This document shows positions 4,724 through 42,202 of a DNA stretch of 49,049 bases, in pieces. Source of the stretch: a virus; IMG/VR virus record IMGVR_UViG_3300024346_000110, positions 1-49,049 of that record. One strand, 5' to 3'. Under the pieces are notes generated by a model. It saw only the letters and a program-made list of their open reading frames with translations. It was not told the DNA's origin and made no database searches. The position numbers were made by a program, and so were the translations under genes. How positions within the stretch are numbered: the first letter of the stretch is position 1; the number at the start of each line of letters is the position of its first letter.

Positions 4724-4740
4724 TATGTTACACTTTAATG

Positions 4741-11318: not shown

Positions 11319-11476
11319 CGTTTAAAAATATTTATGTTCTTGTACTTACTTATTTTATTAATCAGCTTATTTTCTACAGTTTTTTGTAAACTCTTACTGG
11401 CTGCTGCGTAATTTTTTTCACTCAAACTCTTAATAAAATTGGTGATTTCTGCTCTATTTTTGTCTTCGCTGTTCAT
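11315..11476 (-). CDS. Small prohead-core-like peptide between gp21 and gp22
   Basis: A 53-residue frame starting MNSEDKNRAEITNFIKSL and ending KYKNINIFKR, flanked by ATGA overlaps with gp21 (upstream) and gp22 (downstream), so it is almost certainly translated. It is basic and helical, with ITNFIKSLSEKNYAAASKSL and VENKLINKI segments. T4 has two small core proteins (gp67, gp68) next to gp21 and gp22. Small genes of this form lie in the same place in other T4-like phages. Sequence similarity to either cannot be claimed, so the assignment rests on position and character. The gp22 late octamer lies inside its 3' end. Confidence 0.75.
   Translation of the reverse strand: MNSEDKNRAEITNFIKSLSEKNYAAASKSLQKTVENKLINKISKYKNINIFKR
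11329..11336 (-). promoter_or_regulatory. Late promoter octamer (CATAAATA)
   Basis: CATAAATA on the minus strand, 10 bases upstream of the gp22-like start and inside the small core gene. It could boost scaffold expression relative to the protease. Confidence 0.55.
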
Positions 11477-12153
11477 TTAATTTTTATTGCCTCTATAAAT
11501 TCGAGTATGTTTTGCTTGATATATGTTTCAACGTCTTTACGTGGTAGGTCGGAGAGTCCTAGCTCAAGATTATGATAAGCTTCCTCATATTCACCGAATG
11601 TATTCAATACATATTGCTTACTCTCTAAAATGCCATTAACAAATGCTTCACCGAAACTCGGATCTGCTACACAGTCTATCGCTACCAGTCTCATATTCTT
11701 AACATGACTAACATCAGAACCACCTTCATTAACAAGTTTTCCTAAAGATCTAGTGCTCATCCCAACACTACAACCATCTCGGATTAACGATCTGACAATC
11801 ATACCGGTTGGTGTTGATAATACCTTTGATTTACCAATATAGACGTTAGGATTACCTTTAGAGGGCTTGAGTTCAGTCACAAGATGGCATGCTCGCTCGA
11901 GATCTACATCTGCACTTGTGGGGTGATTTAACTCTCCTAATGCTCTTTTCGTGTTTATCATTTGCTCATTGTACCTCTTAACTTCAATCAACATTTCCTT
12001 CTCACAGTATATACGTTGATTTTTGTTTTTCTCTTTTGCCATCGCATAAGGTCCTTTTATATATACATCTGGATCTGTATTATTATTTTTCTCTTCTATA
12101 ATATATTCAAATTCAGAAGGATCGGTTGTTTCAACTAATAGTTTCGCGTGCAT
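11473..12153 (-). CDS. gp21: Prohead core maturation protease (T4 gp21-like)
   Basis: A 226-residue serine protease of the T4 prohead protease family (MEROPS S77). The catalytic His lies in GELNHPTS (His77) and the nucleophilic Ser in SVGMSTRSLG (Ser133), with the typical CHLVTELK strand between them and AIDCVADPSFGEAF after. T4 gp21 has the same elements at His85 and Ser140 in 212 residues. The enzyme sits in the scaffold core, cuts core proteins and capsid protein at L/I-x-E sites and destroys itself during maturation. It is followed by overlapping core-peptide and gp22 genes and preceded by a late octamer. Confidence 0.92.
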   Translation of the reverse strand: MHAKLLVETTDPSEFEYIIEEKNNNTDPDVYIKGPYAMAKEKNKNQRIYCEKEMLIEVKRYNEQMINTKRALGELNHPTSADVDLERACHLVTELKPSKGNPNVYIGKSKVLSTPTGMIVRSLIRDGCSVGMSTRSLGKLVNEGGSDVSHVKNMRLVAIDCVADPSFGEAFVNGILESKQYVLNTFGEYEEAYHNLELGLSDLPRKDVETYIKQNILEFIEAIKIK

Positions 12154-12661: not shown

Positions 12662-13002
12662 CTCATGTATACTACAGCATGTCCTTCTTCAACTAACAGA
12701 TCATTTATACTTGTATCAAAGTCTCTCTCAAACAGAACACCGATACATCTTCCGAATTTTCCTTGGTCCACTGATTTTAAATACAATTCATTATTTTGAG
12801 ATTTAACAATCTCTATTAATCTCTCTTTAGCTGCAAGGCCTTTTATTTTCTCTTGTTTGTCTCTAGTACGTGTTTCTGGTGTATTTATACCATACAATCT
12901 TATTATCTTTTTGAGCTTGATGTTAAATCCTAGGTCAATTTCAGCATCAATAGTATCACCATCAATTACACGTATGACTTTAATTGTATAAATGTAATCC
13001 AT
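12658..13002 (-). CDS. Staphylococcal nuclease-like (SNase) protein
   Basis: A 114-residue minimal SNase domain (thermonuclease family). It has VIRVIDGDTIDAEI with the Ca2+-binding Asp (about 16), IIRLYGINTPET with Arg35 and Glu43, and GKFGRCIGVLF with the second catalytic Arg (about 85). These match Asp21, Arg35, Glu43 and Arg87 of the staphylococcal enzyme, so activity against DNA or RNA is expected. No signal peptide is visible, so it acts in the cytoplasm or in the virion. Start and stop overlap the neck gene (TGATG) and the gp4 gene (GTGA), so it is translated with head-completion proteins. A role in DNA-end trimming or host-DNA breakdown is possible. Confidence 0.88.
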   Translation of the reverse strand: MDYIYTIKVIRVIDGDTIDAEIDLGFNIKLKKIIRLYGINTPETRTRDKQEKIKGLAAKERLIEIVKSQNNELYLKSVDQGKFGRCIGVLFERDFDTSINDLLVEEGHAVVYMR

Positions 13003-13994
13003 CAGCCTACGAAAAAGAGTGGTGGTTGACCATCACCAAAACCTGGTACACCTTCATATAATTTTGTCTCAAGCTTTTCTTTCTCTTGATTACCCTCAGA
13101 TAACAACTCACTATAATTCGGCACACCACCGCCAAATAAATTTGTACCACTATATTTTCCACGAATTCGACCAATTACAATTTTTGTCAATGCGAGAGTG
13201 TATTGATATACCCACTGTTCACTTACTAACTGATGCACAGGTCTCTCGACATATGCTCCAACAATACCATAAAAGTGCGTCCTCCTAGCACCACCACCTG
13301 GCTCAGGTGTTAGAAACATTGTTTGTGTGCGATCATCAAATCTATAGTAGTAGTCTTGTGATAGCAATTTTCTTCGTGTGTCAAGCCAATTTTTCATCGT
13401 AAACCAACTTATCAAGTCAAAACCATATTTACCTAAGGCATAACTAAAATATGTTTGTTGTGCTAATGTTTGCTCTAATGTGAATAATGTATTTATACCA
13501 CTACTACTACCCTCTTCAAACGCGAAAAGGTCTATAACCTTTCTGTAATTGTCAGTCAAGTAATCATAACCTCTCATCGATGGATTTCCATCTTTGTATG
13601 ATACTGCAAAGTTCTTAGGGCTTTCACCTATTGTACTTTTTCCTACCTCATATAAATCTGTATCTAATGTAGCCACATCATCACTTGGTGTTGATGTTTT
13701 GAGTTGCTCTGTTGCAGTAAACAAAACATCCATTCGAAGACCTTTACCAGGTTCATACAACCGAGAGTTGAATGTCAAGAGCTCTTCTGTGTAACCAGCG
13801 AACTTGCTGAACATTTCGATCGCGATGCTGATATTTTCAAATACTTGATTTTGGTGTGCTTCTATGTTTATCTGCGGATAGCCGAGTGTGTATGCTATAC
13901 GAGTCGCGAGCTTCTCGTAGGAGTCTACTATAGGATTTAAATTGGTACTATAAAATGCGCTCAGTGGTTTTGTTGGTATAGATTCTTGACTCAT
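13002..13994 (-). CDS. gp13: Neck protein (T4 gp13-like)
   Basis: A 330-residue protein. Residues about 25-80 match the start of T4 gp13: an amphipathic helix (YEKLATRIAYTLGYPQINIEA), H-x-N-Q-V-F-E-N-I-S-I-A-I-E-M-F, then a beta region. gp13 (309 aa in T4) joins gp14 to seal the head and receive the tail. The C-terminal half has aromatic segments (FGFDLISWF-like, FYGIVGAYVERPVHQLV) consistent with neck proteins. It overlaps the 637 aa fibre gene upstream (ATGA) and the SNase gene downstream (TGATG). gp14 was not recognised in the window. Similarity is moderate, so another neck protein cannot be excluded. Confidence 0.75.
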   Translation of the reverse strand: MSQESIPTKPLSAFYSTNLNPIVDSYEKLATRIAYTLGYPQINIEAHQNQVFENISIAIEMFSKFAGYTEELLTFNSRLYEPGKGLRMDVLFTATEQLKTSTPSDDVATLDTDLYEVGKSTIGESPKNFAVSYKDGNPSMRGYDYLTDNYRKVIDLFAFEEGSSSGINTLFTLEQTLAQQTYFSYALGKYGFDLISWFTMKNWLDTRRKLLSQDYYYRFDDRTQTMFLTPEPGGGARRTHFYGIVGAYVERPVHQLVSEQWVYQYTLALTKIVIGRIRGKYSGTNLFGGGVPNYSELLSEGNQEKEKLETKLYEGVPGFGDGQPPLFFVG

Positions 13995-26669: not shown

Positions 26670-29600
26670 TCAGAATAGGTTGGTTCGATTACCTTTAAAT
26701 GTACACACAGCTTGTGGTGGACGTGATTTGTATGCATGATCATCTGGTAGCTTGTGCTCTAATCCCCACTTCCACGCTAAATATCCTTCCGTGTGCACTC
26801 TCTGGTAGTCTTCCAAAACTATGAATTCTGCTAAATAACCGTCCGTAAATTGTGAACCTAACCAATTTGCATTTAATCTGAACATATGCTCTGCTGTTTT
26901 TGGAAACTCATAATCACTCTCACCGGTAGCAACTAACATACCATTCAAATATATCTTGACAATATTATTAACAGGATTCATCTCCACCTCGAATATATTC
27001 CATTGGTTGGTTAAGTCGGTGTCACTGAAGCTTTTAGTCAATGGATATGGTCCATTGCCCAGCTCATTTTCTTTCATCCAAACTTTACCGAAAAACTCAT
27101 CATTATCTCCTGGTACGATCGCTAGATTCATACCTGTTGATTGTTCAAACCAGATCATATAATCATGAAAGTTGTTAACACCTGTTGGTTTGAAGACGAG
27201 GTACCAAACAACCGGATCTTCATTCCACTTATCTCTAGAATCATTAGAGTCATAAGCTGATTCTAAATAATCACTATCACCTGTGAATTTAAATACATTC
27301 TTGTCATTGAGCAATTCATCACCACTGGTGATATACTCCGGTTCTGCTCCTGCATTAGTCCACATATACAAGTCTGTCTTACCACTATTGTTCCATCTAG
27401 TGAATGTACCGGAGTTATCAACATCAACTTTAGTGCTATCAGCTGCATCTAACCAAGTGAATGGCTGAGAACTCAATGCTGCTGGTGACCATATTGTTTG
27501 ATCATTTGGTATCTCTTTAAATATCAATTCACATTCATTTGTTTGTTGATTTAAATTGACTTCAAACTCAACGAATGGATCATCAGTTGTGTGATTAATA
27601 CAGTATTCAACTAATGTTGCTTTGTTACCATTTGTTATCATGCTAACCTCTGTAAACATAACCTCACCAGCACTCTCCACTTCAATTGAGTATTTTGCGG
27701 TTTTGTATCTTGTAATATCAATCACATCAAGAGTCGCTCCATCAATTAAATTGGTTCTATAAAATAATGTATTTGGTTTTGAGTTAACCACCACCCAATC
27801 ATTCACACTCAAGCCGTCATTTTTGGCTAGTACATATACTGTATTAGTAGCAGCTATTATAACCGTATCACCTAAGTTTATTGCTCCTGATGTATGTTCA
27901 TCGGTAATGTATGATTCAAGGCTAGGTTCATATGTTAATGTTGAGTTGTCGAAATTACTAATTGTATATTGATATAACGTCTCAACTTTATCTGTCAAAA
28001 CTTCCGTTTCACCGGTCAATCTAACTGTATGTGTATATGAATCATTCCAGTTCGCACTAGCATCTGAAACAGATGTTAATACCTCCTGCACACCATCCAG
28101 ATCGTCTGATGTTAATACAAGATCTCCTAATACCAAACTCTCAGTATATACATTATTCCATGTGTTGTTGATGCTTCCTAAATTTCGTGTTGCAGACTGT
28201 AGTGGGTAGATGTCACTATCAACAGGGGCTTGAAACATTATTATATTGTCTGCAGATTCACCAACGTTAACTACATCACCAATACCCGCCAACAACCACA
28301 CATTACCATCAACACGCAAATCACCTTTGATGTAAACATTATCTTCAGCGGTAACACCGGTGTTGAATGTTGTATGACCGTCTATGTATAACTCACTGCT
28401 CAACATCGTAACACCAGTTATTACGACATCATCAGTAACACAAAGACTACCTGTTATCGTATCACCACTCAAATTAACAAATGATGTTCTGTTATAATCT
28501 GTATTGTTTGTAGCACTATCACTACTCACAAAACTGTAAACACTATCCCACAACCCGCTATTAGCGTTTACACTTATATATGTTTGATCATGATTATATA
28601 AATCATTGCTTGTAACTACCATTGAACCCCTGTTCCATATCTCTCGGTTGGCGAATCCGTATATATTCCATGTTGAGTTTGGTTCAGGTGAAATTATTAT
28701 TTCAATGGTAGTATCATTTGCAGTATATGTATATTCAAATATTTGACCATCACTTTGATTGTTACTAAATTCGTTTTGATTTACAGGTAATATTTGTGTG
28801 CTTGTGGTACTTGAAATTACAGCATTCTTTGGAACATTATCTGTGTCCCATGCTTGTGAGAATAATATAAACGCATACTGCTTACCAATTGTCAACCCAT
28901 GTAGTATTATTCTCTGTTCATCGACTACATACCTGTAATTATCATCTAATATGTTTGAAATGAACCCACTAGTGGTTGTCGTTTCTGTTGTGTTAGAAAT
29001 CCCAGTTGCATTTGTTATCTCCCAATTAACATCACTTGTCGACTCTTTACTGAAAGTAACATCGTTGATGTTAACATCCGAATCACCATTTACATTAATC
29101 GCATGCGTATAAACATAAGCGCGGGAAACATCTGTAGAGTCATCGTTTATTAAATTGCGTGTGCGTGGAGATGTTACTACAGCTAATGGATCGTCAACCT
29201 CTGTGAGTCGTAGTATATCTGTTGTCGTTGTACCATCTACTCTTAAATCACCATCGATTATATCATATCCACTTAATTCACGTACCTTGATATCGATGAC
29301 ATCAACAACACTACTCAGAGCTGTGATGCTCGTGAACACGGCTGTTGTTCCTGATAGATGGCCTACTATTTCAAGATTTCCATCAATCGTATCACCACTT
29401 GTGTTTACAAAATTTGTTCTGTTATAGTCGGTGTTGTTAGTAGCACTGTCACTATTGATCCAGCTGTAAACACTATCCCAATCTGAGCTAGTCGCCAACA
29501 CGCTGGCATGTGTACTATCCCAGTTGCTGCTTGTAGCTAACACGCTTGCATGTGTGCTGTTCCAATCACCGCTTGTCGCTAACACGCTGGCATGTGTACT

Positions 29601-32600
29601 ATCCCAATCACCACTTGTTGCAAGAACACTTGCGTGTGTGCTGTTCCAATCACCGCTTGTCGCTAACACGCTAGCATGCGTGCTGTTCCAATCTGAACTC
29701 GTTGCAAGAACACTCGCATGCGTGCTGTTCCAATCACCGCTTGTCGCTAACACACTCGCATGAGTACTATCCCAATCACCGCTTGTTGCGAGAACACTGG
29801 CATATGTACTATCCCAATCCGAGCTAGTAGTTAACACACTTGCATGCGTGCTGTCCCAGTTGCTGCTTGTAGCTAACACACTTGCGTGTGTGCTGTTCCA
29901 ATCACCGCTTGTCGCTAACACACTCGCATGAGTGCTGTTCCAGTCACCACTGGTGTTGTACACACTTGCGTGTGTGCTGTCCCAATCACCGCTTGTCGCT
30001 AACACACTCGCATGAGTACTGTTCCAGTCACCACTGGTGTTAAAAACACTTGCATGTGTGCTGTCCCAATCGGCACTTGTTGCTAACACGCTTGCATATG
30101 TACTGTCCCAATCACCGCTAGTCGCTAACACACTCGCATGAGTACTGTTCCAATCGGCGCTTGTTGCTAATATGCTAATATACACACTTTTGAAATCACG
30201 TACATCTTGTCTTGATAAATGTTCAATCTCTTCAGGTGTGTGTATGTGTCCATGTGCGAGATGACTGTCACCGAATATCAAGTCTCCGGTCGTTACATAT
30301 AAATTATTCTCAGCTGATACGTCACCACCAACACTCAAATCACCATCAATAATGTCATAACCGCTTAATTCACGTACTTTGATATCGATAACATCAACGT
30401 AACTGCTCAGAGCTGTCAAGCTCGTGAATACAGCTTCATTACCAGTTATCCTGTTGACCACTTCCAACGATTTTATCGTGTCACCACTAGTGTTTATAAA
30501 ATTTGTTCTGTTATAGTCGGTGTTGTTAGTAGCACTGTCACTATTGACCCAGCTGTAAACATTATTCCAATCTGCACTCGTTCTGCTAACATCCGTATAA
30601 ACATTGTCCCAATCTGCACTTGCACCATAGACGCTGTTACGTGTACTATCCCAATCTGCACTCGTTCTGCTAACATCCGTATAAACATTGTCCCAATCTG
30701 CACTTGCACCATAGACGCTGTTACGTGTACTATCCCAATCTGCACTCGTTCTGCTAACATCCGTATAAACATTCTTAAAATTCCTTACATCTTGTTTCGT
30801 TAAGTTTTCTAGTGAACCTGTACCGTTGAATGTAATATCACCAACCTTCACATTACCAGTGACATATGCATCTCCATCAATAGTAGTTTTACCATGAACT
30901 GATAACATGCTATTGTCAATCGCAGTTATATCACCTATAATAAAATTCTGCTGATCAACATCAATACGTAACATCCATGGATTGTTACCATCGACAGGAT
31001 CAAATACATCACCAATAAACAAATTGTCAGCATGCAACATCAATCGGTTGTCATGACTACTGTTACCTTGATTGCCACCAAACAACTCTATTCTAGCACC
31101 GGTGGTATTATCTGAACCACCATATAACCGTAATCTATCGGTTGGGTCGTTTGTTCTGATATTTTTGGTAACAACATTTTGTTGTACTTCGAGGCTACCG
31201 GTTATTGTGTCACCTGCAACATTAACATATGTTGTATTGTTGTACGTACTGTTATTCGTGGCACTATCGGATTTGACCCAACTGTAAACACTATCCCAAT
31301 CAGCGCTGTTAACACTCACATCAGTATACACATTGTTCCAATCTGCACTTGTATTATACACGCTAACATTTGTACTCATCCAATCAGCACTGTTAACACT
31401 CACATCAGTATACACATTGTTCCAATCTGCGCTTGTGCTGTTAACGCTAACATTTGTACTCATCCAATCAGCACTGTTGACACTCACATCAGTATACACA
31501 TTGTTCCAATCTGCACTTGTATTATACACGCTAACATTTGTACTCTTAAAATCACGCACATCTTGTTTGGATAGATGTTCAATATGCTCTGGTGTATGGG
31601 CATGTCCATGTGCAAAATTACTGTCACCGAATATGATATCACCATGTTCTACATACAAGTCGTTCAAAAATGACCCAGTACCCTCCACACCAAAATCACC
31701 ATCAATGATATCATATCCGCTCAGCTCTCGTACCTTTATATCAATAACATCAACAACACTGCTCAGAGCTGTGATGCTCGTGAACACGGCTGTTGTTCCT
31801 GATAGATGACCAGTAATACTCAAATCACCGTTAATAGTGTCACCACTAGTGTTTACATAATTCGTTCTGTTGTAATCAGTGTTGTTGGTAGCACTATCAC
31901 TTTGTGTGAAACTATATGCACTATCCCATGTAGCACTGGTATCAAAAACACTAGTATAAGCGCTCCACCAACTAGTCATACCATGACTCACATGTGTTGC
32001 AGTATTATCCCAATCGGAACTATATATATCAACTTTTACATGCGTGTCATTCCAATTACCACTAGCATTAGAAACAACAGCATGAGTGCTGTCCCATGCA
32101 GCGCTTGTATCTAATACGCTATTATAAACACTGTCCCATGTAGCACTTGTATCGAATACACTCGAGTGTGTGTCACTCCAATCTGAGCTAGTAGCTAACA
32201 CACTCGCGTATGTTGAGTTCCAATCAGCACTAGTATCAAGCACACTGGTGTATGTGCTCTTTAGATTTCTCAAATCTTCTCTCGAAAATCTCTCTACTTC
32301 TTCCGGTGTGTGTGGATAACCATGTGATATTCCATCATCACCAAACACTATGTCACCGTAATATATGTTTAAATCTGAATCAATATTCAGCTCATCAATA
32401 ATATTAAGAGTACCTGTTATTGTATCACCGGTTACATTTACAAATGTTGTGTTGTTGTAATCAGTGCTGTTTGTAGCACTATCACTATTAACCCAACTAT
32501 AAACACTGTTCCAATCACTACTTGTTGCTAACACACTCGCATGCGTGTTATTCCAATCACTACTAGTCGCCAACACGCTGACATATGTGCTATTCCAATT

Positions 32601-35600
32601 GGAGCTTGTTGCTAACACACTTGCGTGTGTGCTGTCCCATTTAGCACTTGTCGTTAATATGCTAGTATGTACGCTCTTGAAATCGCGTACATCTTGTTTG
32701 GATAGATGTTCTATCTCCTCAGGTGTGTGTATGTGTCCATGTGCTAGATGATTGTCACCAAATATTAAATCCCCTGTCGTTACATATAAACTATTCTCAG
32801 CTGATATGTCACCACCAACGCTCAAGTCACCATCAATAATGTCATAGCCACTGAGCTCTCTCACCTTTATGTCTATAACATCAACGTAACTACTCAGGGC
32901 CGTCAAGCTCGTGAATACAGCTTCATTACCAGTTATCCTGTTGACAACCTCTAATGATTTTATTGTGTCACCGCTCGTGTTTACAAATGTTGTGTTGTTA
33001 TAATGTGTGTTGTTTGTAGCACTGTCACTATTGACCCAGCTGTAAACACTATCCCAGTCTGAACTTGTCGCAAGAACGCTTGCATGTGTACTGTCCCAGT
33101 CTGAACTTGTCGCAAGAACGCTGGCGTGTGTGCTGTCCCAGTTGCTGCTTGTTGTGTTTACACTTGTGTGTGTACTGTCCCAGTCTGAACTTGTCGCAAG
33201 AACGCTGGCGTGTGTGTTGTTCCAGTTGCTGCTTGTTGCAAAAACGCTTGCATGTGTACTGTCCCAATCTGAACTCGTTGCAAGAACGCTGGCGTGTGTG
33301 CTGTCCCAGTTGCTGCTTGTTGTGTTTACACTAGTATGAGTGCTGTCCCAATCTGAGCTAGTAGCCAACACACTAGCATGAGTGCTGTTCCAATCACCGC
33401 TTGTCGCAAGAACGCTTGCATGAGTACTGTCCCAATCACCGCTTGTCGTTAACACGCTAGCATGAGTGTTGTTCCAATCACCACTGACGTTAAGAACACT
33501 AGCATAAACACTGTTCCAATCACTACTAGTAGCTAATACGTTAGCATAAACACTGTTCCAGTCGCCACTTGTAGCTAACACACTTGCGTGCACGCTCTTA
33601 AAATCTCGAACATCTTGCTTAGATAGATGTTCAATCTGCTCTGGTGTGTGCGCATGTCCGTGATCAATATTGCTGTCACCGAATATAATTTCACCATGTG
33701 TTACATATATGTTTGTATCAGCTGCAATATTACCTCCAACACCAAGATCACCATCAATGATATCATATCCACTCAATTCACGTACCTTGATGTCGATTAC
33801 GTCAACAACACTGCTCAGAGCTGTGATGCTCGTGAACACGGCTGTCGTTCCGGTTAAGTGACCTGTAATCTCGAGATCACCGGTGATGGTATCACCACTG
33901 GTGTTAACAAATGTTGTGTTGTTGTAATCTGTGTTGTTTGTAGCACTGTCACTATTGACAAAATTATAAACACTATCCCAATCTGAGCTAGTAGCTAGCA
34001 CACTCGCATGAGTATTATCCCAATTGGAACTGGTAGCTAACACGCTGGCATGTGTACTGTCCCAATTGGAACTTGTCGCAAGAACGCTAGCATGAGTATT
34101 GTTCCAATCACCACTGGTGTTGAGAACACTCGTGTATGTACTGTTCCAATCTGAGCTAGTAGCTAACACGCTGGCATGTGTGCTGTTCCAATCTGAGCTA
34201 GTAGCTAACACGCTGGCATGTGTACTGTCCCAATCACCGCTAGTCACCAACACGCTGGCATGTGTACTATCCCAATCACCACTAGTCACCAACACGCTGG
34301 CATGTGTGCTGTCCCAATCTCCACTAGTGTTGAGAACGCTAGCATGTGTGCTGTCCCAATCTCCACTAGTGTTGAGAACGCTAGCATGTGCACTATTCCA
34401 ATCGCTGCTTGTAGCTAACACGCTTGCATGTGTGCTGTCCCAATCCCCACTAGTCACCAACACGCTTGCATGAGTGCTGTCCCAGTCTGAACTCGTTGCA
34501 AGAACGCTTGCATGAGTGCTGTTCCAATCACCACTAGTCACCAACACGCTTGCATGAGTGCTGTTCCAGTCTGAACTTGTTGCAAGAACGCTTGTATGTG
34601 TGTTGTTCCAGTTGCTGCTTGTTGCAAAAACGCTTGCATGTGTACTGTCCCAATCGGCACTTGTTGCTAACACACTTGCGTGTGTACTGTCCCAATCGGC
34701 ACTCGTTGCAAGAACACTGGCATGAGTGCTGTTCCAATCAGCACTTGTCGCCAACACATTGCCATATACACGCTTAAAATCTCTTATATCTTGATCTGTT
34801 AGAGGCTCATTAGCTACAACCAATCTGTTAACCGTTGTGTTACCCTCAACATTGAGATCTCCATCAATGATATCATACCCGCTCAGCTCCCGTACTTTGA
34901 TATCGATGACATCAACAACACTGCTCAGAGCTGTGATGCTCGTGAACACAGCTGTTGTTCCTGATAAGTGTCCGGATATATCTAGATCACCACTAATTGT
35001 ATCACCACTAGTGTTAACAAATGTTGTATTGTTATAGTCAGTATTATTGGTCGCGCTGTCACTAACAACCCAGCTATAGGCTGAATTCCATTGACCTGTG
35101 AGAGGTGTTAGTATATTCTCCAAGTCTATTAAATTCGACTCTACTCCATCAACACGTGTGTCTACTCCATCTATACGTGTGTCTACTCCATCTATACGTG
35201 TGTCTACTCCATCAACACGTGTGTTCAAATCTGTTATGCTTTGATCCACTCCATCAACACGTGTGTCTAAATCTGTTATGCTTTGATCCACTCCATCAAC
35301 ACGTGTGTCTAAATCTGTTATGCTTTGATCCACTCCATCAACACGTGTGTCTACTCCATCTATGCGTGTGTCTACTCCATCAACACGTGTGTCTAAATCT
35401 GTTATGCTTTGATCCACTCCATCAACACGTGTGTCTAAATCTGTTATGCTTTGATCCACTCCATCAACACGTGTGTCTACTCCATCGATACGCGTGTCTA
35501 CTCCATCAACACGTGTGTCTAAATCTGTTATGCTTTGATCCACTCCATCAACACGTGTGTCTACTCCATCGATACGCGTGTCTACTCCATCAACACGTGT

Positions 35601-38600
35601 GTCTACTGCATCTATATCTACTGATTCCTCCCAGCTAGAACTTAAGGACGACACCACACTCACAACATCATCCCATGTGCCACTATTTGACATTACGGTA
35701 TTGTATGTGTTATTCCAATTGCCTGAAGAAGATTGTAATAATGCTGTCAGTTCTGGTGGAGAAAACCAATCACCACTATTTGACATTACGGTATTGTATG
35801 TGTTATTCCAATTGCCTGAAGAAGATTGTAATAATGCTGTCAGTTCTGGTGGAGAAAACCAATCACCACTATTTGACATTACGGTATTGTATGTGTTGCT
35901 CCAATTACTAGAATTGGTTGATAATATTGTCGTTAATTCTGGTGGAGAAAACCAATCACCACTGTTTGATACAACGCTGACCTGTACAGACTTAAAGTCT
36001 ATTATATTTTGTTTGGTTAAACTCTCAACCTCATCTTCACTATGTAATATACCATGCGCTAAATCACCATCACCAAATATTATATCACCATGCAATATAT
36101 TTAAATTTGAGTTTATTGATAAATCCTGTACAACACTCAACTCACCAGTGATGGTATCACCACTTACTGCTACAACAGTTGCAGGGTCTATTGTTTCAGC
36201 CCATTGACCGCTGTTTATGTTAACTGTGCTAGTTAAATCAGTTATGTCAGTTTGTTGTGCCCATTGGCCACTGTTTATGCTAACTGTGCTAGTTAAATCT
36301 GTTATGTCAGTTTGTTGTGCCCATTGACCGCTGTTTGCAGCAACTGTGCTAGTTAGATCAGTTATGTCTGTATGTTGTGACCATTGACCGCTGTTTGCAG
36401 CAACTGTGCTAGTTAAATCAGTTATGTCAGTTTGTTGTGCCCATTGGCCACTGTTTATGCTAACTGTGCTAGTTAAATCTGTTATGTCTGTATGTTGTGA
36501 CCATTGACCACTATTTGCAGCAACTGTGCTAGTTAAATCTGTTATGTCAGTTTGTTGTGCCCATTGACCGCTGTTTGCAGCAACGGTGCTAGTTAGATCA
36601 GTTATGTCAGTTTGTTGTGCCCATTGACCGCTGTTTATGCTAACAGTTGTATATGTATCATCCCATTTTTGCCCAGACGTTGAAACTTTATTATGTGTTT
36701 GATCCCAATCACTCTGTTTGCTGTTGAGTGTTGTGACTGCTGTATCCCATTCATCCGCATCTTGATCAACTCTCGTCTTGATATTATCCCAACCAGCTTT
36801 GCTCGAGTTCAGGGTATTGTAAGTATAATTCCATTCATCCTTATTGGCTATTACAATATCTTTAGTATCATCCCAATCATCTCCAGATAGTTCTACACGT
36901 GTTTTCGTTGCATTCCAGTCATCCTGCTTGGTTAATATTGTTGTGTATGCTGTGTTCCAGTTACTAGAGTTTTGATTAATCGTTGCAACCGCCGCGTCCC
37001 ATGTAGTTTTATTAGTCTGTATAGTATTAAACGCGAAATTCCAATCTGACTTATTATTTGTAACTGTATTTTCAGTATCCGACCAACCACCTGCATCTGA
37101 CTGTATTCTATTATATGCACTATTCCATTTTATTTCATTCTCAATGATGACCGAATATGTTGTATTCCAGCTAGCTTCATTATTTTGTACAGTATTGTAT
37201 GTCTCGTTCCAAACACTACTATTGGATGTGAATGTGTTATAAACACTTTTCGAATCTTTTGCATCCTGACTACTAAACTTCTCATCATCCGAGAATATGA
37301 TACTATTCTTATTGACATACAAATCACCAGTTGCATGTATGTCACCTGCAATCGTAATGTCACCAGTAACATTTGCTCCACTTTCAAATGTCGCTGACCC
37401 TGTAACTGATATATCACCTTCAATCTGATCACCTGTAAGTGCTACATAACTACTCAATCTCGATTCAACAGCATCAATACTTTGCTGCAACTGATCTACA
37501 ACAGCACTTTCATCCCACGTACCACTCAACGCTCGTACGGTGTTGTATGTGCTGTTCCAAATAACACCACTATCATCTATAGTAGATACCGCCCGGTTCC
37601 ATTCAGACTTATTATTTGATACAACATCACGTGTTTCCGTCCACCCGACTGCGTTTAATGTTATGCTTTCATATGCATCATCCCAATCATCCGCATCAGC
37701 TACTATTCTGTTGTATGCGTTATTCCAGTTATTTGAGTTTATTGTTATTGCAGTGTATGCAGCACTCCAATCATCCGCGTCCGCTACTATCCTGCTATAA
37801 GCTGTATCCCAATTACCACCACTACCAAGTACTCTGTTGTATGTATTATCCCAATTTGTTGAACCGTTATTAACCTTAGTGTGAGTAGTATCCCACTTTG
37901 ATGCATCACTAACTATCTTACTATATGCAGTGTCCCAATTAGTTTTATTATTCGACACAATACCAGCTGTATCATCCCAATTATCTCCGTACGTTTCAAC
38001 TCGCGAGTAGGCTATATCCCAATTATTACTCGATGTGTTTATTTTATTGTAGGTGTTGTTCCAATTTTGCTCATTAGTGGTTATACTCTCATAAGCATAA
38101 TCCCACTGTTGATCTCTTGTGTCCAGATAATCAACACGCTGCTCTAATAGTGTTATTCTACTCTCAACACTACTAGGTATACTCGGTTCAGACCAGTATG
38201 ATGAATTTGCAGACACATTTGTATATATATCGTTTATTCTTTGTTCAATCTCTACAGGTATATCAATTTCACTCCATCTTGCAGAATTAGTTAATACAGT
38301 CGCATACACGCTCTGAAAAGCTCCACCTGGATCATCTCCCGACACTGTACCTCCACCACCACTACTACCCGAACCACCGAACATATATGTATACCAGGGT
38401 GAATGTTGTATTAATTCTAATGCTTCATGTATTGCAGCTAAACCATTCTGTGATGCTGTGTACGCACTATCCCAATTCGCTTGTGATGTTATGACTATAT
38501 CAGAAGCTGTATCCCACCTATCTGACTTACTTGAAATTATAGAAGTTGTATTATCCCAAGCACCACTGTTCAATTGCATTGTGGTTGTTGCGGCAGTCCA

Positions 38601-38930
38601 TGTGTCTATATTTTCAGTTATATCATCTATTAAGCTGGTACTAAGTGTTGAGGCTAATGATTGCCATGTTGCTGAATTGGTGTAAACAGTATTGTATGTA
38701 CTAGTCCAGTCACCTGAGTTTGCATTAAATGTTACTGTCAACTCATCAACATCATTTATTAGTTCAACTATTTCCGGATAAAAATCTATATTATCAGCAC
38801 CTAGTACTAGATCTGAAACTAAAACTCTGCTAGTAACATTACTATTATATACTAACAAATAGTCGTCTGTATTGATTATCTCCCTGGTAGGTAAACTCTC
38901 AATAGTAATATTATTATTACACTTGGCCAT
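26670..38930 (-). CDS. Giant repetitive tail-fibre protein (4086 aa)
   Basis: One uninterrupted 12.3-kb gene. A short N-terminus (NITIESLPTREIINTDDYLLVYN) resembles virion-attachment starts. Residues about 50-760 are degenerate 14-residue units starting with Trp. Residues about 760-915 are eight 20-residue units (SGQWAQQTDITDLTSTVAAN). Residues about 1105-1265 are a DTRVDGV/DQSITDL heptad array, probably a trimeric coiled coil. From about 1290 to 3240 long runs of W-x-S-T-H-A-S-V-L-A-T-S-S-D alternate with six copies of a module containing VVDVIDIKVRELSGYDIIDG. The last approximately 270 residues form a LamG-like domain ending EGYLAWKWGLEHKLPDDHAY. It must be an extended fibre or whisker reaching far from the particle with a binding tip. 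A late octamer lies 6 bases upstream. Copy numbers could differ from the true genome if repeats were misassembled. Confidence 0.85.
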   Translation of the reverse strand: MAKCNNNITIESLPTREIINTDDYLLVYNSNVTSRVLVSDLVLGADNIDFYPEIVELINDVDELTVTFNANSGDWTSTYNTVYTNSATWQSLASTLSTSLIDDITENIDTWTAATTTMQLNSGAWDNTTSIISSKSDRWDTASDIVITSQANWDSAYTASQNGLAAIHEALELIQHSPWYTYMFGGSGSSGGGGTVSGDDPGGAFQSVYATVLTNSARWSEIDIPVEIEQRINDIYTNVSANSSYWSEPSIPSSVESRITLLEQRVDYLDTRDQQWDYAYESITTNEQNWNNTYNKINTSSNNWDIAYSRVETYGDNWDDTAGIVSNNKTNWDTAYSKIVSDASKWDTTHTKVNNGSTNWDNTYNRVLGSGGNWDTAYSRIVADADDWSAAYTAITINSNNWNNAYNRIVADADDWDDAYESITLNAVGWTETRDVVSNNKSEWNRAVSTIDDSGVIWNSTYNTVRALSGTWDESAVVDQLQQSIDAVESRLSSYVALTGDQIEGDISVTGSATFESGANVTGDITIAGDIHATGDLYVNKNSIIFSDDEKFSSQDAKDSKSVYNTFTSNSSVWNETYNTVQNNEASWNTTYSVIIENEIKWNSAYNRIQSDAGGWSDTENTVTNNKSDWNFAFNTIQTNKTTWDAAVATINQNSSNWNTAYTTILTKQDDWNATKTRVELSGDDWDDTKDIVIANKDEWNYTYNTLNSSKAGWDNIKTRVDQDADEWDTAVTTLNSKQSDWDQTHNKVSTSGQKWDDTYTTVSINSGQWAQQTDITDLTSTVAANSGQWAQQTDITDLTSTVAANSGQWSQHTDITDLTSTVSINSGQWAQQTDITDLTSTVAANSGQWSQHTDITDLTSTVAANSGQWAQQTDITDLTSTVSINSGQWAQQTDITDLTSTVNINSGQWAETIDPATVVAVSGDTITGELSVVQDLSINSNLNILHGDIIFGDGDLAHGILHSEDEVESLTKQNIIDFKSVQVSVVSNSGDWFSPPELTTILSTNSSNWSNTYNTVMSNSGDWFSPPELTALLQSSSGNWNNTYNTVMSNSGDWFSPPELTALLQSSSGNWNNTYNTVMSNSGTWDDVVSVVSSLSSSWEESVDIDAVDTRVDGVDTRIDGVDTRVDGVDQSITDLDTRVDGVDTRIDGVDTRVDGVDQSITDLDTRVDGVDQSITDLDTRVDGVDTRIDGVDTRVDGVDQSITDLDTRVDGVDQSITDLDTRVDGVDQSITDLNTRVDGVDTRIDGVDTRIDGVDTRVDGVESNLIDLENILTPLTGQWNSAYSWVVSDSATNNTDYNNTTFVNTSGDTISGDLDISGHLSGTTAVFTSITALSSVVDVIDIKVRELSGYDIIDGDLNVEGNTTVNRLVVANEPLTDQDIRDFKRVYGNVLATSADWNSTHASVLATSADWDSTHASVLATSADWDSTHASVFATSSNWNNTHTSVLATSSDWNSTHASVLVTSGDWNSTHASVLATSSDWDSTHASVLVTSGDWDSTHASVLATSSDWNSAHASVLNTSGDWDSTHASVLNTSGDWDSTHASVLVTSGDWDSTHASVLVTSGDWDSTHASVLATSSDWNSTHASVLATSSDWNSTYTSVLNTSGDWNNTHASVLATSSNWDSTHASVLATSSNWDNTHASVLATSSDWDSVYNFVNSDSATNNTDYNNTTFVNTSGDTITGDLEITGHLTGTTAVFTSITALSSVVDVIDIKVRELSGYDIIDGDLGVGGNIAADTNIYVTHGEIIFGDSNIDHGHAHTPEQIEHLSKQDVRDFKSVHASVLATSGDWNSVYANVLATSSDWNSVYASVLNVSGDWNNTHASVLTTSGDWDSTHASVLATSGDWNSTHASVLATSSDWDSTHTSVNTTSSNWDSTHASVLATSSDWDSTHASVFATSSNWNNTHASVLATSSDWDSTHTSVNTTSSNWDSTHASVLATSSDWDSTHASVLATSSDWDSVYSWVNSDSATNNTHYNNTTFVNTSGDTIKSLEVVNRITGNEAVFTSLTALSSYVDVIDIKVRELSGYDIIDGDLSVGGDISAENSLYVTTGDLIFGDNHLAHGHIHTPEEIEHLSKQDVRDFKSVHTSILTTSAKWDSTHASVLATSSNWNSTYVSVLATSSDWNNTHASVLATSSDWNSVYSWVNSDSATNSTDYNNTTFVNVTGDTITGTLNIIDELNIDSDLNIYYGDIVFGDDGISHGYPHTPEEVERFSREDLRNLKSTYTSVLDTSADWNSTYASVLATSSDWSDTHSSVFDTSATWDSVYNSVLDTSAAWDSTHAVVSNASGNWNDTHVKVDIYSSDWDNTATHVSHGMTSWWSAYTSVFDTSATWDSAYSFTQSDSATNNTDYNRTNYVNTSGDTINGDLSITGHLSGTTAVFTSITALSSVVDVIDIKVRELSGYDIIDGDFGVEGTGSFLNDLYVEHGDIIFGDSNFAHGHAHTPEHIEHLSKQDVRDFKSTNVSVYNTSADWNNVYTDVSVNSADWMSTNVSVNSTSADWNNVYTDVSVNSADWMSTNVSVYNTSADWNNVYTDVSVNSADWDSVYSWVKSDSATNNSTYNNTTYVNVAGDTITGSLEVQQNVVTKNIRTNDPTDRLRLYGGSDNTTGARIELFGGNQGNSSHDNRLMLHADNLFIGDVFDPVDGNNPWMLRIDVDQQNFIIGDITAIDNSMLSVHGKTTIDGDAYVTGNVKVGDITFNGTGSLENLTKQDVRNFKNVYTDVSRTSADWDSTRNSVYGASADWDNVYTDVSRTSADWDSTRNSVYGASADWDNVYTDVSRTSADWNNVYSWVNSDSATNNTDYNRTNFINTSGDTIKSLEVVNRITGNEAVFTSLTALSSYVDVIDIKVRELSGYDIIDGDLSVGGDVSAENNLYVTTGDLIFGDSHLAHGHIHTPEEIEHLSRQDVRDFKSVYISILATSADWNSTHASVLATSGDWDSTYASVLATSADWDSTHASVFNTSGDWNSTHASVLATSGDWDSTHASVYNTSGDWNSTHASVLATSGDWNSTHASVLATSSNWDSTHASVLTTSSDWDSTYASVLATSGDWDSTHASVLATSGDWNSTHASVLATSSDWNSTHASVLATSGDWNSTHASVLATSGDWDSTHASVLATSGDWNSTHASVLATSSNWDSTHASVLATSSDWDSVYSWINSDSATNNTDYNRTNFVNTSGDTIDGNLEIVGHLSGTTAVFTSITALSSVVDVIDIKVRELSGYDIIDGDLRVDGTTTTDILRLTEVDDPLAVVTSPRTRNLINDDSTDVSRAYVYTHAINVNGDSDVNINDVTFSKESTSDVNWEITNATGISNTTETTTTSGFISNILDDNYRYVVDEQRIILHGLTIGKQYAFILFSQAWDTDNVPKNAVISSTTSTQILPVNQNEFSNNQSDGQIFEYTYTANDTTIEIIISPEPNSTWNIYGFANREIWNRGSMVVTSNDLYNHDQTYISVNANSGLWDSVYSFVSSDSATNNTDYNRTSFVNLSGDTITGSLCVTDDVVITGVTMLSSELYIDGHTTFNTGVTAEDNVYIKGDLRVDGNVWLLAGIGDVVNVGESADNIIMFQAPVDSDIYPLQSATRNLGSINNTWNNVYTESLVLGDLVLTSDDLDGVQEVLTSVSDASANWNDSYTHTVRLTGETEVLTDKVETLYQYTISNFDNSTLTYEPSLESYITDEHTSGAINLGDTVIIAATNTVYVLAKNDGLSVNDWVVVNSKPNTLFYRTNLIDGATLDVIDITRYKTAKYSIEVESAGEVMFTEVSMITNGNKATLVEYCINHTTDDPFVEFEVNLNQQTNECELIFKEIPNDQTIWSPAALSSQPFTWLDAADSTKVDVDNSGTFTRWNNSGKTDLYMWTNAGAEPEYITSGDELLNDKNVFKFTGDSDYLESAYDSNDSRDKWNEDPVVWYLVFKPTGVNNFHDYMIWFEQSTGMNLAIVPGDNDEFFGKVWMKENELGNGPYPLTKSFSDTDLTNQWNIFEVEMNPVNNIVKIYLNGMLVATGESDYEFPKTAEHMFRLNANWLGSQFTDGYLAEFIVLEDYQRVHTEGYLAWKWGLEHKLPDDHAYKSRPPQAVCTFKGNRTNLF
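29470..30180 (-). repeat. Array of 42-bp (14-residue) repeats
   Basis: About 17 tandem copies of a 42-base unit encoding W-(N/D)-S-T-H-A-S-V-L-A-T-S-(G/S)-D. Neighbouring units often differ only at silent or Asn/Asp and Gly/Ser positions, suggesting recent expansion by slippage or recombination. Confidence 0.85.
33050..34760 (-). repeat. Two arrays of 42-bp repeats
   Basis: The same 14-residue unit is repeated in two blocks (about 33050-33600 and 33960-34760) separated by one copy of the dispersed module. Several adjacent units are identical at DNA level, for example units carrying CACTAGTCACCAACACGCTGG around 34230-34310. Confidence 0.85.
35130..35625 (-). repeat. Array of 21-bp (7-residue) heptad repeats
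   Basis: Alternating units encode VDTRVDG/VDTRIDG and VDQSITDLDTRVDG, all in strict seven-residue register. DNA identity between units is nearly complete. The protein pattern (Val/Ile at regular a and d positions) predicts a coiled coil of about 160 residues. Confidence 0.85.
36215..36655 (-). repeat. Array of 60-bp (20-residue) repeats
   Basis: Eight tandem units encode NSGQWAQQTDITDLTSTVAA or close variants (SQHTDITD; VSI or VNI in place of VAA). It is a different repeat class from the 14- and 7-residue arrays, in the same gene. Confidence 0.85.
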
Positions 38931-38976: not shown

Positions 38977-40065
38977 CTATTTCAATGGTATTACTTTACC
39001 ATGATCTGGTGTGGATATGGCGGTACTGTATCCACCTGCATTCTGTATGATCAAATCACCTGTCAAATCACTATCAATTTCCGGGAGAAAATATTTTATT
39101 TGATTATCATTTATGATCTCGAACTCTATAGGAACACCTACAAATTGTGGGAAGTGCTTCTGCATCTCACCGTCAAACATATCAACACTCGTCCCGCTCA
39201 CACTGTTTACGTTACTGGCTGATATGTAAACGCTCGTTGTTCGTGCGAAGTTATATCCTAGTACAGTATCGTTACCAACGTGTGTTATATGTGGGGCTGC
39301 TGTTAATGGTGGTCCAAATGACTCTAAGTATGACCTCTCAGTTACTTCATCATAGTATGGTAGAATATATTTCATATCACTTGTTATATCATCAACAGGT
39401 GTCATGTTGGTTGTGATTTTATATATATTTTTAGTTGTTTCAGGTGTTGATTTAAATAACCATGTCTTTATTGTGAATGATGTGTCACAACTCAATCTGA
39501 ATGGATCTGTATTATTGAGAGCTTCAGGATAATCAATATTCAAATCTCCGGACCATAAAACTTCTGATCGTATCTCCATATCTTTAGGAAAAAATTGTTT
39601 AGGTAATTTCCATGAAATTATAATGTATGGGTCATTATAAGGTACAAAGTTGCTTATTATCTGCTCAATGTCCGTCTGATAACGCGCCATGATTGACATG
39701 TTCACGCTTATATTTACCGGTACAGGTTGTGGTATGTTATAAGATGTCGCAGCGCTATTATTTGAGGTTGCATTTATGTTCCTCTCAAACTCTGACATGT
39801 AAGCTCCATGTATCTTATTGAAAACTCTACCTTGATCTCTACTTATACCAGACATATTCACTGCCACCACCGGTAAAGTCAAGTGTCTTGCTTTATTGGT
39901 TAGATCGTGGATCACTCTCTGCTTTGGTGCATATACATATCGCACCTTAACTTTAGATTTTACATTTCTTTCACGATCATGCCTCTTTATTATAACATCA
40001 TTAAAAGCTGCTACAAATTGTGTCATAACATCCTTTACCTCAAAAAAGTATGGAGATTCCTTCAT
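38977..40065 (-). CDS. gp15: Tail sheath stabiliser/completion protein (T4 gp15-like) with a C-terminal TIG-like extension
   Basis: A 362-residue protein. The first approximately 250 residues follow the T4 gp15 layout: an aromatic start and helix (FFEVKDVMTQFVAAFNDVII), VRYVYAPKQRV, LPVVAVNMSGI, PVPVNISVNMSIMARYQTDI, EQIISNFVPYNDPYIIISW, then DTSFTIKTWLF. In T4, gp15 (272 aa) caps the contracted-tail tube and connects to the neck. The extra C-terminal 95 residues (ITHVGNDTVLGYNFARTTSV, then FLPEIDSDLTGDLIIQNAGG) look like an IPT/TIG immunoglobulin-like domain. It has a late octamer 7 bases upstream. It lies among fibre genes rather than beside gp13/gp14. Confidence 0.82.
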   Translation of the reverse strand: MKESPYFFEVKDVMTQFVAAFNDVIIKRHDRERNVKSKVKVRYVYAPKQRVIHDLTNKARHLTLPVVAVNMSGISRDQGRVFNKIHGAYMSEFERNINATSNNSAATSYNIPQPVPVNISVNMSIMARYQTDIEQIISNFVPYNDPYIIISWKLPKQFFPKDMEIRSEVLWSGDLNIDYPEALNNTDPFRLSCDTSFTIKTWLFKSTPETTKNIYKITTNMTPVDDITSDMKYILPYYDEVTERSYLESFGPPLTAAPHITHVGNDTVLGYNFARTTSVYISASNVNSVSGTSVDMFDGEMQKHFPQFVGVPIEFEIINDNQIKYFLPEIDSDLTGDLIIQNAGGYSTAISTPDHGKVIPLK

Positions 40066-40072
40066 ATATTGT

Positions 40073-40080
40073 TATTTATG
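40073..40080 (-). promoter_or_regulatory. Late promoter octamer (CATAAATA)
   Basis: CATAAATA on the minus strand, 7 bases before the gp15-like ATG and at the edge of the putative structured RNA region. Confidence 0.6.
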
Positions 40081-40099
40081 GTTGATTTCTGTATTTTGT

Positions 40100-40500
40100 A
40101 GCTTATCATATATAAGTACACAAGTGCGAAATAACGCTACAGTATACCCATCAGCATTTTCGGTACACGAGTGTGAGTAGTGGTTGACTCAAAGATGGTT
40201 TGTAACTCGGCAGAGAGAACTGCTGGAAGAGGTAAAGCTAAATTAAACACAACTGCTGAGCGGCAGATGAAAAACGGCGATGTAAGAAATCGCATAGCAC
40301 CGAACCGCGACTTAATTGTCGGCATGTCTAAGCGGTCGAAAGACCGGAGTTTATAGGTCGGGATTCTCCATAAAGTTTAGATCTCAAACGAGTGACGCTC
40401 TAGTGTAGTGGATTCAAACTGGATATAACTACCTAACTCAATGTTTACCTGTTACTGTTATATAGGTGCATTGTAGGTGTACGGCCTCTCCTGGAGAAAA
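40100..40500 (+). ncRNA. Candidate structured non-coding RNA
   Basis: The longest gene-free stretch of the window (40066-40510) is rich in hairpins. The clearest is GCGGTCGAAAGACCGG (40332-40347), a 5-bp stem closed by a GAAA (GNRA) tetraloop on the plus strand. Others are GGCAG-CTGC (about 40209-40223), CTGC-GCAG (about 40254-40266), GCGAT-ATCGC (about 40277-40293), CGAC-GTCG (about 40307-40321), an outer TCTAA-TTAGA enclosing the tetraloop hairpin, and TCTCC-GGAGA near 40490. The tetraloop favours the plus strand, antisense to the surrounding genes. A basic 54-codon plus-strand frame (ATG 40195, stop 40354-40356) is the coding alternative, without a ribosome site. No known RNA family was recognised. 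Confidence 0.5.
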
Positions 40501-40510
40501 CTACCGTGAC

Positions 40511-42202
40511 TTACTGTCTCCATTCAATTAATATTCCATTAACGAATATCAATGTATCTTGACCTAAAGGAATTGTGGCGGTGATACCTTCTTTCCATTC
40601 ACCTGCACTGAGTACATACACATCGTTGCTGAAGCTCGCATCTCCTGTGGCGGTCAAGTCGTGTGTTGTTACTGTTGTTAAATCCGCTATACCTGGTTCT
40701 AGATGCTGATGTGCACCAAATTCATCGAGTTTGTTGTTGACGCTAGCTTGCCACTCACCACTGTTCAGTTGTGTTGTTGTGTATGTGTCATTCCAATTGC
40801 CACTGGTGTTGCTCACGTCAGTGTATACATTATTCCAATCACCACTAGTGTCGTGCACACTTGTGTGAGTGCTGTCCCAATCACCACTGGTGTTGTACAC
40901 ACTTGTATGTGTGCTGTCCCAAATGGAGCTTGTTGCTAACACACTAGTATGAGTGCTGTCCCAATCACCACTGGTGTTGTACACACTCGTGTATGTGCTG
41001 TCCCAATCACCACTAGTCGTCTGCATCTTGGTTATTGTAGCATCACGTTGCGCACTCACCTGCTGTACATTGGATCTCACATCATCGAGATTAGGTATGA
41101 CCGTGCCTCTGTATTCAAGTTCATCTGCCGTGCTCCAATAATCCGGATATACACTATGATATGAATCACGCACGTGTGTATCATTCAGATCACTGTTATC
41201 ATCACCGTTGAATAAATTCTTGTTTACACCTCTGATTGAAGTGAGTCTATCATGTTGTGCGGATGTAACTTTAACGAAAGTTGTGTCAACAAATCCTGTC
41301 CAAGGTCCGTCCAGAACATCGTTGTATGTTATGTCGGCACTATGATCAGCTGTTTTGTCAGAGTGATACTCGACAGATCGTAACTTGGTCACCGATTGAT
41401 CACCAACACCGTTGCCGGCACCACTGCTCAGCTCTGGAATTTTGGTGTATATATCACCTTGTTCAATCAAATCATACGCTTTGATCGGTGTGATTGTTGA
41501 GTATTCAGGTGCGTTTTGTTGAAGACTTGTCATGTGATTGAACAAATCTCCAAGCACATTGCTTGTCACATCTGCCCATGGTTGGATGTTGTCCAGTTTA
41601 CCACCATCTTGCTGCAAATATCTACCATTGATAGCTCCAGTTGATTCAATCTCCCCAGCAACAGTTGCATCACCACCTACAGTCAATAGTGTGTTTATGT
41701 CACCCGCAACACCAACACCAACTGTGCCATGCTGTGTGATGTCAAGTGCCAGTTCATCACCATTATAAAATCTAGAAACACTGTGAGTTGTACCGAATTG
41801 CTTGACTTCCAATCCGATATCAGTACCGTAATTGGTTATATCAAACGAACTTGTCGCGATGCTGTTGGTGTTCAATTGTGTTGTTTCACCCTCAACAACA
41901 AGATCACCATGCACGAACATGTTGTCAGCTGATGTGTGTCCTGTGAGTGTTGTGTCGTTCAGCAAAAACTGATTGCTGACATTGTCCACATTCTCTAAAC
42001 CGACGTGATATTTATCAGCTGCAAGCAACACACTCTCGATGGTGTATTGTCTCTCACCATCTGGTGAATCTGTATCATATCCTACTAGATACATGCTTGA
42101 TGTCGCATCTGTCACTGTACCACCAGTCATGCTACCATCATTAGTTGCCGGAGCTGTGTATGCTCCTGTTACTTGTTGAAAATCCGTGAAGTTCTTAGCC
42201 AT
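40511..42202 (-). CDS. Tail-fibre-like protein (563 aa)
   Basis: The N-terminus (FTDFQQVTGAYTAPATNDGS) differs from the other fibres and suggests another attachment point. Residues about 85-215 have beta-helix-like strands (TSADNMFVHGDLVVEGETTQ) ending in INGRYLQQDGGKLDNI, close to INGRDISADGAKLDSV of the 637 aa protein. Residues about 400-510 carry seven or so 14-residue W-D-S-T-x-T-S-V units like those of the giant fibre. The C-terminus (IPLGQDTLIFVNGILIEWRQ) is a short beta tip. A late octamer lies 8 bases upstream. A 445-base non-coding gap follows. Confidence 0.8.
   Translation of the reverse strand: MAKNFTDFQQVTGAYTAPATNDGSMTGGTVTDATSSMYLVGYDTDSPDGERQYTIESVLLAADKYHVGLENVDNVSNQFLLNDTTLTGHTSADNMFVHGDLVVEGETTQLNTNSIATSSFDITNYGTDIGLEVKQFGTTHSVSRFYNGDELALDITQHGTVGVGVAGDINTLLTVGGDATVAGEIESTGAINGRYLQQDGGKLDNIQPWADVTSNVLGDLFNHMTSLQQNAPEYSTITPIKAYDLIEQGDIYTKIPELSSGAGNGVGDQSVTKLRSVEYHSDKTADHSADITYNDVLDGPWTGFVDTTFVKVTSAQHDRLTSIRGVNKNLFNGDDNSDLNDTHVRDSYHSVYPDYWSTADELEYRGTVIPNLDDVRSNVQQVSAQRDATITKMQTTSGDWDSTYTSVYNTSGDWDSTHTSVLATSSIWDSTHTSVYNTSGDWDSTHTSVHDTSGDWNNVYTDVSNTSGNWNDTYTTTQLNSGEWQASVNNKLDEFGAHQHLEPGIADLTTVTTHDLTATGDASFSNDVYVLSAGEWKEGITATIPLGQDTLIFVNGILIEWRQ

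Follow-up and report, generated by a model that had tools for sequence, protein, structure and literature searches.

Two fibres of phage T4 offer the closest described parallels to the giant fibre gene reported here. The neck fibre fibritin (gp wac) is described as a trimeric coiled coil divided into segments by breaks, which contacts gp15 (PMC3797505, PMC3004832) and measures 53 nm (PMC3004832). The long tail fibre is assembled from four proteins, gp34 to gp37, extends for about 144-145 nm according to the account in PMC5537660, is trimeric over most of its length, carries beta domains along its shaft and binds the host with its end. The fibre that we describe would share features with both. 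As in fibritin, a segmented coiled coil is suggested by predicted helix and a 3.50-residue period; unlike fibritin, the fibre would extend for an estimated ~400 nm, it is interrupted by nodes of roughly 60-150 residues rather than by small loops, and it terminates in a lectin-like end. In contrast to the four-protein long tail fibre, it is a single chain of 4086 amino acids, about half of which is predicted coiled coil, and no match to the gp34 or gp37 families was found in its ORF with Pfam or PHROG.

The window, that is, the whole stretch of DNA that was analysed, comprises all 49,049 bases of IMG/VR record IMGVR_UViG_3300024346_000110, and its gene content indicates that the source is an uncultured, T4-like phage. 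Among the matches listed for its major capsid protein gp23, twelve records of cultured phages, most of them cyanophages, show ~34-36% identity, and no match of at least 60% was found among 2494 matching cultured-phage records, which places the phage in a clade without a close cultured member in that collection. The giant fibre ORF begins 46 nt after the gp15 homologue and lies between the gp15 and gp13 homologues, among further fibre-like genes (Table 1). The N-terminal domain of the giant fibre is weakly similar to the N-terminus of ORF 40511-42202, which has four to five further 14-residue units at 40835-41017, so that the shaft repeat is common to at least two genes of this phage. The interval from gp15 to this ORF is 445 bases long in the window (40066-40510); its counterpart in a related contig, G001 (L047 11369 to L002 3574), holds at least six ORFs of at least 150 aa, and a scan of five of these extra ORFs gave almost no matches. 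The window also encodes a ClpA/B-like ATP-dependent protease ATPase at 2243-4756 (phrog_4871, 4e-234).

Table 1. Segments of the giant fibre gene and structural genes of the window (positions in the window; nodes and arrays listed from the N-terminus of the fibre).
Feature	Coordinates	Strand	Basis or remark
Major capsid gp23	8901-10334		phrog_138, 6e-88
Protease gp21	11473-12153		
gp13-like neck (head-tail adaptor) homologue, far end of fibre cluster	13002..13994	-	phrog_211 E=5.1e-15
gp15 tail sheath stabiliser homologue, directly upstream of giant fibre gene	38977..40065	-	PF16724 E=1.3e-20; phrog_227
Giant fibre gene, 4086 aa	26670..38930	-	ATG start, no internal stop; G001 orthologue P0002, 4484 aa
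N-terminal domain, residues 1-72, likely anchor	38715..38930	-	residues 1-64 58% identical in G001
14-residue array 1, residues 276-490	37461..38105	-	W spacing 14; period 3.50
Node with GDQI entry, about residues 499-560	37251..37436	-	entry motif
14-residue array 2, residues 574-770	36621..37211	-	W spacing; period 3.50
20-residue array, 7 units, residues 770-909	36204..36623	-	repeat units; period not 3.5
GDTI-class node without DVIDIKV core, about residues 923-985	35976..36164	-	motif
31-residue array, 3 units, residues 993-1085	35676..35954	-	repeat units
Heptad array, residues 1109-1276	35103..35606	-	24 heptads listed; PDB trimeric coiled-coil matches
DVIDIKV-class node 1	34860..35063	-	
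14-residue array, residues 1399-1651, 18 units	33978..34736	-	
DVIDIKV-class node 2	33750..33953	-	part of modelled piece
14-residue array, residues 1791-1959	33054..33560	-	
DVIDIKV-class node 3	32829..33029	-	
14-residue array, residues 2098-2140	32511..32639	-	W spacing
GDTI-class node, about residues 2167-2225	32256..32432	-	
14-residue array, residues 2237-2321	31968..32222	-	
DVIDIKV-class node 4	31698..31901	-	
14-residue array, residues 2475-2545	31296..31508	-	
Larger node, residues 2572-2720	30771..31217	-	69% identical in G001
14-residue array, residues 2732-2788	30567..30737	-	W spacing
DVIDIKV-class node 5	30342..30542	-	
14-residue array, residues 2927-3151, 16 units	29478..30152	-	
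DVIDIKV-class node 6	29250..29453	-	
Distal non-repeat region, residues 3225-3809	27504..29258	-	53-64% identical in G001
C-terminal ConA/LamG-like tip (likely), residues 3810-4086	26673..27503	-	PF13385 E=1.5e-5, below cut-off

The fibre protein contains 156 tryptophans, and 100 of the 155 successive Trp spacings are exactly 14 residues, whereas 1000 shuffles yielded 3.6 such spacings on average and never more than 10. The fourteen-residue units number 101 in total. All have the Trp, since this residue defines them; V or I occupies position 7 in 98 units, and S occupies position 11 in 77. Eleven nodes are recognised by a shared entry motif (GDTI in ten, GDQI in one), the final GDTI node falling within the distal non-repeat region at residue 3488. 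The preliminary description of this locus had counted six nodes, and these correspond to the DVIDIKVRELSGYDIIDG module, which is present six times and makes up the DVIDIKV class only. It had also distinguished three classes of repeat, and the 14-residue, 20-residue (seven units) and 7-residue (24 heptads) arrays are indeed present, but a fourth array, of three 31-residue units, had been missed.

Periodicity and modelling point to a fibre that is most likely a series of coiled-coil rods. The strongest hydrophobic period is 3.50 in each of the five 14-residue arrays that were analysed, as it is in the 7-residue array, and a unit of 14 residues, matching this period, amounts to two heptads; the 31-residue array peaks at 3.44, the 20-residue array peaks at 2.86 and lacks a 3.5 period, and no strong period was found in a node. 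Structure prediction of one array had been put forward as a check, and AlphaFold2, applied to a 215-residue array-node-array piece with an alignment of 22 pieces from the window and two related contigs (G001 and G002), gives helix in both arrays flanking the node (residues 2-41 and 148-213 of the piece), with pLDDT blocks of 66-75 in the first array and 82-88 in the second, and a node of low confidence, with blocks of about 45-60 in its first half. The 14-residue arrays are hence predicted to be continuous alpha-helix. The heptad array combines heptad periodicity with kinship to solved trimers, its PDB profile matches including reovirus sigma-1 (1.1e-8), P22 gp26 (1.8e-7) and a trimeric autotransporter fragment (6e-4), with low-complexity bias possible; the 14-residue array also hit the RNA polymerase II tail in the PDB, which was discounted as an effect of composition. 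The long rod envisaged earlier is thus supported by the predicted helix, the 3.50 period and these matches to three kinds of trimeric coiled coil. A heptad pattern leaves the number of chains unfixed, and a trimer is the state that we would favour; a core Trp every 14 residues is unusual for trimers.

The rise of an alpha-helical coiled coil is 0.1485 nm per residue. The length estimate applies this rise to the helical segments, with segment limits placed by hand from motifs, and assigns 30 nm per 546 residues to the remainder; T4 gp34 residues 744-1289 are described as spanning just over 30 nm (PMC5537660). The estimated extended length is 399-422 nm for the window fibre and about 409 nm for that of G001, so that the extended fibre would measure roughly 400 nm (~0.4 micrometres).

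The tip is likely to be LamG/ConA-like. The last 277 residues alone reach 25.6 bits against PF13385, short of the curated cut-off of 27.6, and the structure model of the tip has a mean pLDDT of 37; the tip is therefore filed as LamG-like only, and the LamG-like tip of the preliminary description stands in this weaker form. It is 72% identical to the tip in G001 and 98% identical to that in G003, a third related contig. When four related tips were compared with PF13385, the sole match was that of Pseudanabaena phage PA-SR01, again below cut-off, and none was obtained for the tips of G001, of ORF 19903-22080 or of cyanophage KBS-S-2A. The KBS-S-2A relative is a stand-alone protein (L050 2965-3726; phrog_10356, 2.3e-69), annotated as a virion structural protein and encoded beside neck genes. 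The neighbouring fibre ORF at 19903-22080 of the window ends in a second LamG-like tip, and its homologues in G003 (882 aa) and G001 (493 aa) are without the GYLA.KW tip signature, which suggests a recent tip exchange in this ORF.

We posit that the gene product is probably a fibre on the virion of this T4-like phage and that it forms a parallel homotrimer of coiled-coil rods and nodes with a ConA/LamG-like tip. The three chains would lie alongside one another, with a small anchor at their N-terminal end and the tip at their C-terminal end. The 14-residue units, as pairs of heptads with core positions W0, H/Y4, V7 and S11, would form left-handed coiled-coil rods, and the 7-residue array would be a classical coiled coil. 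The 11 compact nodes (GDTI...DVIDIKV... modules), probably of intertwined beta-structure, would interrupt the rods and act as joints, register resets and trimer locks, probably allowing a very long coil to bend, and the 20-residue unit, read as 14+6, may tentatively form a rod to which every repeat contributes a beta-layer. The tip would bind a glycan or glycoprotein of the host surface, and the extended fibre would act as a long tether, catching the host while it is still out of reach of the tail. The protein is known from metagenome contigs alone, and we infer the trimer, the node fold, the tip fold and its ligand, the length and the site of attachment, be it tail or neck. Pfam detected no known trimerisation or chaperone domain in the fibre ORF, and when the whole protein was scanned with Pfam and PHROG, all matches were of a coiled-coil or compositional nature, most of them falling on the heptad array.

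Three related contigs bear on how this gene has evolved. G001 (IMGVR_UViG_3300044723_010080; 59,423 bases) was assembled independently; its gp23 is 91% and its gp15 63% identical to those of the window, and its fibre orthologue P0002 lies directly after gp15. Comparison of copy number among relatives, another of the checks proposed at the outset, gives about 20 nodes and 68 units in P0002 against 11 nodes and 101 units in the window. An orthologue of 4484 aa with the same place and the same ends, and with different node and unit counts, indicates that the gene is real and that its interior has been rebuilt between lineages. The 20-residue region finds a weak 31% match in G001 and the heptad region none, neither the 20- nor the 7-residue array being found there as such. 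G003, whose gp23 is 99% identical to that of the window, ends within the last node, which limits comparison of copies to the last 899 fibre codons; these are 97.0% identical in DNA, with 63 synonymous and 14 nonsynonymous codon differences, which indicates purifying selection. The fibre of G002 has the same nodes and units as that of the window and a different N-terminus. In a tree of nodes, the DVIDIKV nodes of G001, seven in number, group together as a single clade (support 100/99) and the six of the window mix with the three of G002; this clustering implies that nodes turn over within lineages, and different fibre genes apparently have nodes in common. Arrays and nodes have been gained and lost between lineages. 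Across 47 units of the G002 fibre (L003 4301-13273), pS is 0.75 and pN 0.15; the repeat protein there is strongly conserved and nearly invariant while its silent sites are saturated, a pattern that would fit either favoured silent substitution or great age of the array.

It is very improbable that the giant gene is an artefact in which arrays were collapsed or expanded by assembly, or several genes fused. Assemblies do break in this region, as the G003 contig does inside the last node, and the longest exact DNA repeat, 125 bp within the 31-residue array, is close to the usual k-mer limits of assemblers. Against this, 98 of the 101 units are distinct in DNA, which is difference enough for assembly, the reading frame is unbroken across 12.3 kb, and the independent assembly of G001 contains one ORF in the same location with related ends. 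The proposal of a single 4086-residue gene was accordingly borne out by one intact ORF, several genes or a collapsed assembly being mostly rejected, and the full-length G001 orthologue largely refutes a fusion of several genes; the excess of synonymous over nonsynonymous differences to G003 likewise speaks for one gene. It is a genuine gene of unusual length and architecture. The same DNA comparisons bear on a second claim, that the units are nearly identical and that array length can therefore change quickly by recombination. Near identity did not hold, and the recombination argument is unsupported in that form: mean unit identity is 0.47-0.77 by array, and pairwise pS averages 0.79 and pN 0.38. 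The differences in arrays and nodes between lineages do fit length change, and the unequal counts in the window and G001, the single clade of G001 nodes, which implies that nodes multiply or homogenise within lineages, and short higher-order repeats (84-bp units at 99%) all speak for fast unequal recombination that tunes fibre length within populations. We nevertheless consider such tuning rather unlikely: synonymous sites are saturated in the majority of units, and over 300 nt the gene matches itself at 0.873 (87%) at best, which mark the arrays as old, selected repeats with a few young patches, and G001, with its gp15 at 63%, is a distant comparison that gives no rate. ORF 19903-22080, considered as a case of unit slippage by comparison with G003 and G001, was rejected because it differs by domain exchange and not by a clean number of units.

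The nature of the rods and their mounting also admit other readings. The 14-residue units are rich in Ser, Thr, Asp, Asn and Val and poor in classical helix formers, as might befit a beta-spiral or solenoid, but the 3.50 period and the predicted helix, the exact correspondence of 14 residues to two heptads and the heptad pattern of the neighbouring 7-residue array make a beta-structured shaft quite improbable. As for mounting, the fibre might be a neck (collar) whisker, an enlarged fibritin on the gp13/gp15 neck that restrains or guides other fibres and senses the surroundings. The gene directly follows gp15 in a cluster that ends at gp13, T4 fibritin is a segmented trimeric coiled coil in contact with gp15, and a cultured Anabaena myophage is described with neck fibres of about 100 nm that resemble chains of beads (PMC10966104). 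However, no fibritin domain was detected by Pfam or PDB profile search (no fibritin family among 20 Pfam matches at E<=1, and no PDB chain at E<=5 with the N-terminal profile), and the conserved lectin-like tip suggests host binding. In the cultured marine phage P-HM2, moreover, gp7, a baseplate gene, also lies in the region before gp13 together with further structural genes, so that gene position does not decide mounting. We regard the neck whisker as possible and somewhat doubtful, and retain the host-catching tether as the preferred reading.

Arrays similar to the Trp-ringed shaft occur beyond this clade. An exact search pattern of one unit plus the start of the next is found in 37 stretches in 30 IMG/VR contigs (hand count), including G001, G002 and G003, and at least three strict units lie in one frame in 33 of the 37 loci and 27 of the 30 contigs, one locus, L039, being doubtful. 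Outside the clade, frames with such arrays span about 175 to 2049 aa, many of them cut by locus ends; among the matching contigs, full ORFs of more than 4000 aa with the pattern occur in the window and G001 only. One exact repeat pattern had no match in 84,980 species genomes. Among the cultured phages of INPHARED, no match was found for the N-terminus, for one node, for either of two arrays or for the L009 fibre as proteins, or for the L009 fibre as DNA; BLAST masks low-complexity arrays, so this negative does not show that arrays are absent, and another IMG/VR fibre, L016, reached 27 INPHARED records, Klebsiella phage fibres among them. A short-peptide search of IMG/VR with gp15 likewise found nothing, yet G001 has a gp15 at 63% identity, and such a search evidently misses relatives. 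Queries of open PMC papers, made in terms other than peptide strings, found no description of the 14-residue Trp repeat. Fibres L009 7586-10093 and L003 4301-13273 have a common N-terminus (MAGN...HHTLP...) unlike that of the window, and such differing N-termini imply that the shaft is mounted on several anchors. The contig of G002 also carries glycosyltransferase-like genes (L051 6847-9787; phrog_2644, phrog_2835, phrog_22739, phrog_2456), and its giant Ser/Thr-rich fibre may possibly be glycosylated.

We tentatively suggest, as an idea that may well need revision, that Trp-ringed rods are a widespread, unnamed shaft of uncultured phages, borne on various anchors, and that in this clade copyable nodes join them into single-chain tethers of ~400 nm. 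Such tethers would exceed the virion in length, and cassettes of node plus array, as they are gained or lost, would determine how long they are and how many hinges they have. If so, the phage could sample a volume far beyond the reach of its tail and make contact with distant hosts, a matter of interest for encounters with sparse hosts. The node-plus-array build would provide a route to a longer trimeric fibre that requires no additional genes, and the 14-residue repeat with its Trp ring, unrecognised here by Pfam and PHROG models, would be a simple, testable coiled-coil building block.

Comparison with other described systems narrows what is new. The YadA-type membrane anchor of trimeric autotransporter adhesins was not found at the C-terminus by Pfam, and the gene lies in a phage structural cluster; Peptidase_S74, the mark of S74-chaperoned tail fibres, is absent from the giant fibre ORF by Pfam and present in the neighbouring ORF 44262-48335. 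Six-residue insertions into the heptads of trimeric coiled coils are described as forming beta-layers (Hartmann et al. 2016, PMC4786415), and the 20-residue unit, as 14+6 with loss of the 3.5 period, may resemble these alpha/beta coiled coils, although the published motif [aliphatic]-A-T-K-[polar]-[DE] is absent from it as such. PHM2_096 of P-HM2 ('YapH', 3677 aa) is likewise a giant fibre-like gene before gp13 in a T4-like phage, so giant fibre-like genes in this part of the genome are already known, but it has only 23 Trp, no 14-residue period and no GDTI or GDTM motif. The L-shaped or side tail fibres of Klebsiella phages Sugarland and NJS2 (1588 aa, cut, and 971 aa), matched at about 31-35% and only by way of the IMG/VR fibre L016, possess a 14-residue double-heptad array with 14 as the strongest self-periodicity, and their units, unlike those of the giant fibre, are rich in Ala, Ser, Glu and Lys and lack the Trp ring; double-heptad shafts are thus of an already known kind. 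Cultured phages thus already provide examples of such shafts and of giant fibre genes alike, and what is new, and rather extreme, is the Trp-ringed, noded form.
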